Below are positions 36,332-38,361 of a stretch of DNA of 38,361 bases, one piece after another. The stretch's first letter is position 1. The number at the start of each line of letters is the position of its first letter. This DNA comes from Lysobacterales bacterium (GTDB lineage: Bacteria > Pseudomonadota > Gammaproteobacteria > Xanthomonadales > SZUA-36). Where the stretch lies: the NCBI GenBank assembly GCA_013002505.1, contig JABDJL010000036.1, positions 1 to 38,361 of the forward strand, given 5' to 3'. The notes beneath the pieces are model-generated. The model saw only the letters and a program-made list of their open reading frames with translations, was not told where the DNA came from and did not search any database. The translations under genes and the position numbers were made by a program.

Positions 36332-36733
36332 ATGATCAGAATCCTGACAATACTGGCTGCCGGGCTGTTGTGTGCCTGTGATACGTCACACGATGCAATG
36401 ATTGTTGACGGTAACATTCAGAGCAAGGCGGTGTCCGGAGCGATTGCGCCGGATACTCTCTACAGGGGCAGTCTCGTTGCCACCTCTAACGGCATCTGCG
36501 GGCTGGTCCTGATCGAAGCGGGCCAGTTCGCAGAAGATGCGTCCATTCGATTCAATACTTCTTTCGATCCACCCGGTTTTGAAGCCGCTGACGGCATCAG
36601 AGCGGACTGCATCGCAGGACAGGTCAGCTTTATTGATCTCGTGACCGGGCAGTCGCATACCAGCGCAGCGCCGGATTCACTGGACGCAGCCGATGCCTTC
36701 ACCCGGAGTCATATCGAAATCCTGCTGCTTTAA
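36332..36733 (+). CDS. Small putative lipoprotein of unknown function
   Basis: A 133-residue protein with a short lipoprotein signal (MIRILTILAAGLLCACDTSH), acylated Cys16 in LCAC, and Asp17 at position +2, which in E. coli keeps lipoproteins in the inner membrane. The mature part is acidic, with two further cysteines (about 56 and 92), no repeats and no recognised domain. It diverges from cutA. The start is the only one that includes the signal peptide, and it coincides with the expected transcription start. Confidence 0.72.
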   Translation: MIRILTILAAGLLCACDTSHDAMIVDGNIQSKAVSGAIAPDTLYRGSLVATSNGICGLVLIEAGQFAEDASIRFNTSFDPPGFEAADGIRADCIAGQVSFIDLVTGQSHTSAAPDSLDAADAFTRSHIEILLL

Positions 36734-36962: not shown

Positions 36963-37451
36963 GTGACGTTCTTGCGGAGTACCTGGTTGTGGGCGAGGGA
37001 TCTTCTGTTCGCCGCCATATTCATCATTGTCGGTATCGTATTCGTGGTTTGGCCAATCGGGCCATTGCTGGAATACCACGACATCTCAGGCTGGCAGGCG
37101 CAGGATTGCATGATTGAGTCATTCTGGTTCGAGCAGGAAAAGCCGACGGTTTCTTCGGAGTTGAAAGTCCGTTACATTTATCGTTTTGGAGACCAATCGT
37201 ACGCGTCAGAGCGCCTGGCTCAACAACCCATCAAGTTCATGGACCCGGGTGATGCCGGGCCGATTGTTTCTGCCATGACACCGGGCGCGGATCACCCCTG
37301 CTTTGTTAATCCTGATAAGCCATCGGAGGCCATACTGCTCAAGCCTTTCAAGATCGAAGTATTCGTCTGGCGATTTGGCCTGTTGCTGGGCATTTGTTTC
37401 CTGGTCACAGGAGCACTCAGTCTTCGCAAAGCGGGGCAGGAATACGAGTAG
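36963..37451 (+). CDS. DUF3592-like membrane protein
   Basis: A 162-residue protein with two membrane helices (about 13-33 and 137-152) flanking an extracytoplasmic beta-rich domain. The segment CFVNPDKPSEAILLKP (from Cys113) is typical of DUF3592 proteins. A second cysteine (Cys49) could pair with it. I start at a GTG (36963-36965) preceded by AGGGAGGGTGG. The frame is open upstream to 36852, but those 37 codons look unlike a membrane protein N-terminus. Function unknown. It may be co-transcribed with the upstream lipoprotein gene, 229 bases away. Confidence 0.75.
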   Translation: MTFLRSTWLWARDLLFAAIFIIVGIVFVVWPIGPLLEYHDISGWQAQDCMIESFWFEQEKPTVSSELKVRYIYRFGDQSYASERLAQQPIKFMDPGDAGPIVSAMTPGADHPCFVNPDKPSEAILLKPFKIEVFVWRFGLLLGICFLVTGALSLRKAGQEYE

Positions 37452-37470: not shown

Positions 37471-37563
37471 GGGTAGTTGATTTGCCCGGGAAGCGCGCCT
37501 TAAGCGTACGGTCTATGCAAGCCGCTTTTGAATCGAGGCATTCCTCGGTTTGCTCAACTACCC
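37471..37563. other. Intergenic inverted-repeat structure
   Basis: GGGTAGTTGA (37471-37480) and its exact complement TCAACTACCC (37554-37563) enclose 73 bases. Within them is an 8-base hairpin (37531-37538 with 37543-37550, CATT loop, one G-T pair) and a weaker 5-base one (AAGCG/CGCTT). This could be a structured RNA, a pair of terminators between convergent genes, or an element remnant. No T run follows and no flanking duplication was found. Confidence 0.45.
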
Positions 37564-37627
37564 GCTGGTACTTTCCCAGGCGCGGCAACATGGTCAGACA
37601 AAAGCGGTCTTGTACGGAGCATTGAAG

Positions 37628-38361
37628 CTACTGCCCGGCGTGACCAGGAAGTGGTGATATGACAACTGTGCTGCCCATGGCACAAGCCAGGGTTTTACAG
37701 GCGCTTTCGCGGTTACGCGCAATCATCAGCACGCCTTCGGCGCGCATGATACCGATCCATTCGCCTCTTTCTACGTCACCGTAGTTGCTTCCCAGCAGCA
37801 CCTGGACGGTGTGCTCACCGACGGTCAACAAGAAGTGATCGCCAGGTTCAATGCCAAGTTGCTCGAGGTCTGCGGGCACAAGACTAGTGAAGATGTTTCC
37901 GTGATTGGCGGTGACGCCGGCAATGGTGCCCTCGGCGCGGTTCTCGAAAAAGCGGGCCGTTGAGTTGGCGGCAACTGCGATGGTGCCGTCTTTGTGGCGG
38001 GCCAGTTCGCCATGGTCTAGGTAGTGCTCCAATGCGCGAATCGCGGCCAGGCGCTCGGGGTCATTGACGTTTACATGCCCATCCCGGTCCACCCGCCACA
38101 GCGCAGCCGGCACGGTGGCCTGGCTGGAACGCTCCACGTAGTCACGGGGTCCGTCGATCTCGCTGCGATTGGTCAGGAACAGGATCGGAATTTTTGGATC
38201 GAAATTCAGGCTCAGCGGGCCGTGCTTGACGTCCAGCCGGATGGCCGCACCGGCGGCCAGCACTGCGTCATAGACTTCACCATGGCGTTCCGCGATCAGC
38301 GCACCGATGATACCGCCCATTGAATTGCCCATCAGCACCACCCGGCCCGGTTTGCCATGGG
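37628..38361 (-). CDS. Alpha/beta hydrolase fused to SAM-HAT C-terminal-like domain (partial)
   Basis: The 5' end lies beyond the right edge; 243 residues are visible. The first about 110 are the second half of an alpha/beta hydrolase: nucleophile elbow GRVVLMGNSMGG with its serine, a possible acid in FLTNRSEIDGPRD, and a candidate catalytic histidine in RVDRDGHVNV. The rest resembles the C-terminal domain of SAM hydroxide adenosyltransferases (DUF62, the chlorinase/fluorinase family): HGNIFTSLVPADLEQLGI, VQVLLGSNYGDVERGE, and EGVLMIARNRESACKTL match the GNxxTN, TYxxVxxGE and GxLEIAxNxGSAAxxL pattern I recall. The catalytic N-terminal domain of that family is absent. No stop interrupts the frame. 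The function is unknown. Confidence 0.75.
   Translation of the reverse strand, partial: HGKPGRVVLMGNSMGGIIGALIAERHGEVYDAVLAAGAAIRLDVKHGPLSLNFDPKIPILFLTNRSEIDGPRDYVERSSQATVPAALWRVDRDGHVNVNDPERLAAIRALEHYLDHGELARHKDGTIAVAANSTARFFENRAEGTIAGVTANHGNIFTSLVPADLEQLGIEPGDHFLLTVGEHTVQVLLGSNYGDVERGEWIGIMRAEGVLMIARNRESACKTLACAMGSTVVISPLPGHAGQ

Follow-up and report, generated by a model that had tools for sequence, protein, structure and literature searches.

A single gene fragment on the minus strand of the window, the whole stretch of DNA analysed here (38,361 nt, the entire contig C180), encodes the second half of an alpha/beta hydrolase joined to a SAM_HAT_C domain of the DUF62/fluorinase type. This domain combination, of which the searches described below found no earlier record, is well supported, on one truncated gene. 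We are fairly sure of the domain anatomy, whereas the mechanism is something that we infer.

The fusion frame and its two domains

The fusion ORF (37628..38361, minus strand) is a single open frame of 243 codons plus a stop (38359..37628) and runs off the end of the contig, which belongs to an assembly of 3.04 Mb in 196 contigs (92.6% complete). No stop codon lies between the hydrolase half and the SAM_HAT_C half, so the position and the uninterrupted frame reported in the first-pass annotation stand. The 5′ end of the ORF is not readable here because the window is the whole contig and the frame is open at its edge; the 5′ half of the hydrolase, including the first strands and the oxyanion region, lies beyond it. 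The end of C180 overlaps no other contig of the same genome, and a whole-genome scan with Abhydrolase_6 recovered no contig-edge fragment resembling the missing first half of the hydrolase.

The visible hydrolase half (aa 1-123; 37991..38359, minus strand) carries the nucleophile elbow GNSMGG (aa 11-16) and, further on, DGHVNV (aa 93-98). Across aa 4-121 the Pfam hydrolase families score under their curated cut-offs (the visible half reaches 20.7 bits, the cut-off being 27), as is expected because the domain is truncated at its 5′ end and only half is present. Across an alignment of this half and seven related esterases, Gly11, Ser13, Gly15, Gly16 and His95 are invariant, Glu67 falls at or beside the catalytic acid column and Asp69 sits two residues further on. 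This alignment points to a probable catalytic set of the nucleophile Ser13, His95 and the acid Glu67 (or Asp69). In the first structural model the hydrolase half was disordered for want of alignment rows, and it was refolded alone with the seven related esterases, giving a pLDDT of 77 and a pTM of 0.72. The predicted order of elements, strand-Ser-helix-strand-strand-helix-strand-His-helix, is the one seen in alpha/beta hydrolases, in the second half of the fold. The structures matched by Foldseek and VIA were alpha/beta hydrolases, with VIA Z scores of 8-10 and no Foldseek E-value <0.001 for the partial domain, and the best sequence relative was a Lachnospiraceae Esterase-family protein (37% over aa 4-75). 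The nucleophile elbow, the probable order of acid and His and the predicted second-half fold are all shared with cap-less alpha/beta-hydrolase esterases (Esterase PF00756, monoacylglycerol lipase, carboxylesterases). Unlike these, the fusion sequence is remote from all matches and has a SAM_HAT_C barrel directly after the last hydrolase helix.

The second domain was identified by Pfam as SAM_HAT_C (PF20257), which matched aa 144-232 across profile positions 1-83 of 84 (33.7 bits against a curated cut-off of 25.5, E 4.8e-8). An independent profile built from 35 canonical C-domains, with the fusion protein left out, scored the protein at 28.2 bits; 20,000 shuffled versions of it reached 9.8 bits at most. 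The NCBIfam fluorinase model gave a weak match at the same place, and the best six PDB sequence matches, all weak, were DUF62 or fluorinase chains aligned at the SAM_HAT_C region. AlphaFold assigned a pLDDT >90 to most of residues 150-236, and the modelled barrel starts at around aa 131, slightly before the sequence match, and is complete over aa ~131-237 (aa 131-237 being 37649..37969, minus strand). Structure comparison of this barrel returned 21 entries with Z >7, all of them DUF62 or fluorinase structures (Z 11-17, next rows <=6.6). The closest solved fold was 2zbu (Z 17.2, rmsd 1.4 A over 101 residues), with 1rqp at Z 15.2; since canonical DUF62 barrels were among the rows of the model's alignment, the fold evidence depends in part on the sequence evidence. 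The fusion protein contains a genuine, complete SAM_HAT_C domain. Both domain assignments made at first pass are thus upheld, by the Pfam SAM_HAT_C score and by the predicted folds of the two halves. The usual catalytic partner had been described as absent, and indeed no SAM_HAT_N was found in the 243 aa or in the whole assembly, where the fusion holds the sole SAM_HAT_C.

Residues of the barrel

In the fluorinase barrel, Asn215, Arg277 and Ala279 contact adenine, while Asp210-His211, Ser269 and Arg270 contact methionine (PMC1282579). By PDB alignment these correspond in the fusion to Asn155 (Asn215), Arg215 (Arg277), Thr150 (Asp210), Ala207 (Ser269) and Glu208 (Arg270). Gly154-Asn155 is kept, and Gly-Asn is invariant in 42/42 canonical barrels; the Asn155 codon, the equivalent of fluorinase Asn215 (PMC1282579), lies at 37895..37897 (minus strand). 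Compared with the same 42 barrels, the nearly invariant positions Thr158, Gly199, Asn216 and Gly229 and the nearly invariant aromatic at Phe254 (here Tyr193) are also kept, as is Gly209. The conserved Asp-x-(Phe/Tyr)-Gly-Asn motif reads Ala-Asn-His-Gly-Asn in the fusion, Gly-Asn alone being retained: the Asp found in 42/42 canonical rows is Ala151, and the Phe/Tyr before Gly-Asn, likewise present in 42/42, is His153. A His in place of the aromatic could weaken adenine binding. The states at Ser269, Arg270 and Arg277 are weak evidence either way because these positions vary within the DUF62 family; Arg277 is common to fluorinase and the fusion and is unconserved in DUF62.

The pattern of residues suggests that the adenine side of the barrel has been kept and the methionine side lost. 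The first-pass annotation had proposed a nucleotide- or SAM-responsive domain. The SAM part of that proposal now appears less likely than a barrel that would bind adenine or adenosine, with the methionine-linked Asp and the Ser269/Arg270 positions lost and the adenine-contact Asn kept. Like DUF62, fluorinase FlA and chlorinase SalL, all of which combine SAM_HAT_N with SAM_HAT_C, the fusion has a complete C barrel, Gly-Asn and most of the invariant positions. Unlike them, it is fused to a hydrolase, has no SAM_HAT_N, and is changed at the Asp, aromatic, Ser269 and Arg270 positions. Having neither an N domain nor the full Asp-x-(Phe/Tyr)-Gly-Asn motif, the fusion protein is not a DUF62 enzyme.

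Distribution of the pairing

SAM_HAT_C was found in 5/299 genomes of the order and 41/398 genomes of the phylum, the window's own being counted in both. Forty-three other SAM_HAT_C loci were read (one further locus, G370, was left out), and all have the usual N domain: 41 are complete N+C, L035 is truncated where its contig ends, and L051 is frameshifted. The latter (G465:C23:22695-22933) is a canonical DUF62 gene whose C-terminal barrel is interrupted by an apparent frameshift; the genome that carries it has a listed completeness of 100%. Among the loci, L010, L012 (window's family), L014 and L027 stand apart within DUF62 as a subgroup whose barrel loop is longer, and the signal-peptide-like N-termini of L014 and L027 suggest possible export of these two SAM-HAT proteins.

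Searches with the whole protein found no second copy of the fusion in ~700 related genomes (40 relatives, 39 family, 299 order, 398 phylum), yielding solely partial matches that were at chance level or confined to the hydrolase. L004 was considered as a relative (31% over 65 residues, E 2.5e-4) and discarded as a chance match, its locus having peroxiredoxin- and LysR-type genes. A pattern-based scan of GTDB contigs, which reaches close relatives only, found no fusion and one esterase without the barrel. Searches of viral, phage and plasmid collections, at the sensitivity used, gave no match to the fusion, and no paper naming a hydrolase-SAM_HAT_C pairing was found in the literature. Conserved co-occurrence in relatives, to which the first-pass annotation had looked for support, was therefore not seen, as no relative with the pairing was found. 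The fusion is likely to be rare, although its absence elsewhere is unproved because the collections hold one genome per species and the GTDB scan is limited to close relatives.

What the barrel may do for the hydrolase

Our preferred reading, which we hold tentatively and rate at somewhat less than an even chance, is that an alpha/beta-hydrolase serine esterase or thioesterase captured a DUF62 C-terminal barrel. A barrel alone is half of a binding site only. Here it would still offer the adenine half of a DUF62-type site, and the hydrolase would replace the N domain as the site's other wall. Adenosine-containing esters or thioesters (acyl-adenosine, acyl-CoA or similar) would then be held at the Ser-Glu/Asp-His centre, and a trimer is possible, as in DUF62. 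Because a hydrolase would stand in the N domain's place against the adenine-binding side of the barrel, the enzyme would be expected to act on adenosine-containing compounds. The main doubts are that there is a single example, that its 5′ end is missing, that just 370 bp separate the junction from the contig end and that an aminotransferase pseudogene scar lies at the 3′ side. That this is a new enzyme architecture, with the fluorinase/SAM-hydrolase barrel serving apart from its own catalytic partner as a portable adenine-recognition module, which would target a serine hydrolase to adenosyl esters/thioesters or switch the hydrolase in response, seems to us rather doubtful.

Next best after the adenine-site model, and in our judgement unlikely, is a purely structural or regulatory barrel, one that would fix the oligomer or act as a remote sensor of an adenosine compound, with the hydrolase working on esters of an unrelated kind. 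DUF62 proteins are trimeric, and StDUF62 moves towards the trimeric state in the presence of adenosine (PMC12120602), which would suit such a role, as would a barrel that is predicted to be intact and is confidently folded in the model. Moreover, the loss of the methionine contacts and of the aromatic before Gly-Asn may mean that ligand binding is altered. Against this, the adenine-contact Asn and nearly all of the invariant positions have been kept.

The locus itself bears on whether the fusion functions at all. Directly 3′ of the fusion gene is the remnant of a C-terminus (37529..37665, minus strand) which, from inspection of its sequence, we take to be that of an aminotransferase; 102/130 bases (78%) match an intact gene on C35. 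The remnant has a one-base gap and lacks its original stop, and the fusion ORF extends into it, out of frame, with its final codons. With this broken gene adjoining, the fusion gene therefore arrived or was rearranged at this site. The other neighbours are cutA and a DUF3592 protein (both by Pfam), a small unassigned ORF, and a gene that by inspection is presumably dsbD; the neighbouring genes give no hint of adenosine metabolism or of a function. The DUF3592 gene (36966-37451, plus strand) is convergent with the fusion gene, and beside it is a 133-aa lipoprotein-like ORF (36332-36733) with no Pfam match.

A chance recombination product at this scarred locus, decaying or non-functional and under no selection for joint function, would account for the pseudogene with its frame break and out-of-frame overlap, and for a fusion kept by no relative. 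We nevertheless consider it improbable, as the frame is intact over 243 codons, the catalytic Ser and His and the invariant barrel residues are kept, and the third-position GC (0.73 and 0.63) is within the range of the neighbouring genes. Least probable of all is an assembly chimera in which the terminal ~370 bp of C180 (the hydrolase half) was wrongly joined to a SAM_HAT_C gene: contig ends in a 196-contig assembly are places where chimeras occur and the join is in no second genome searched, but it is same-strand, in frame and between two complete domain ends, with no severed SAM_HAT_N partner anywhere in the assembly and no other contig overlapping the end of C180.

A single truncated example is a lead and not an established system. 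In every other case examined SAM_HAT_C accompanies SAM_HAT_N, the edge-cut L035 and the frameshifted L051 included. If it is true that the barrel of the fusion protein works with an unrelated catalytic domain, SAM_HAT_C would be a separable nucleoside-binding module, which would bear on the origin of the DUF62 enzymes and would provide a natural design for adenosine-directed esterases.
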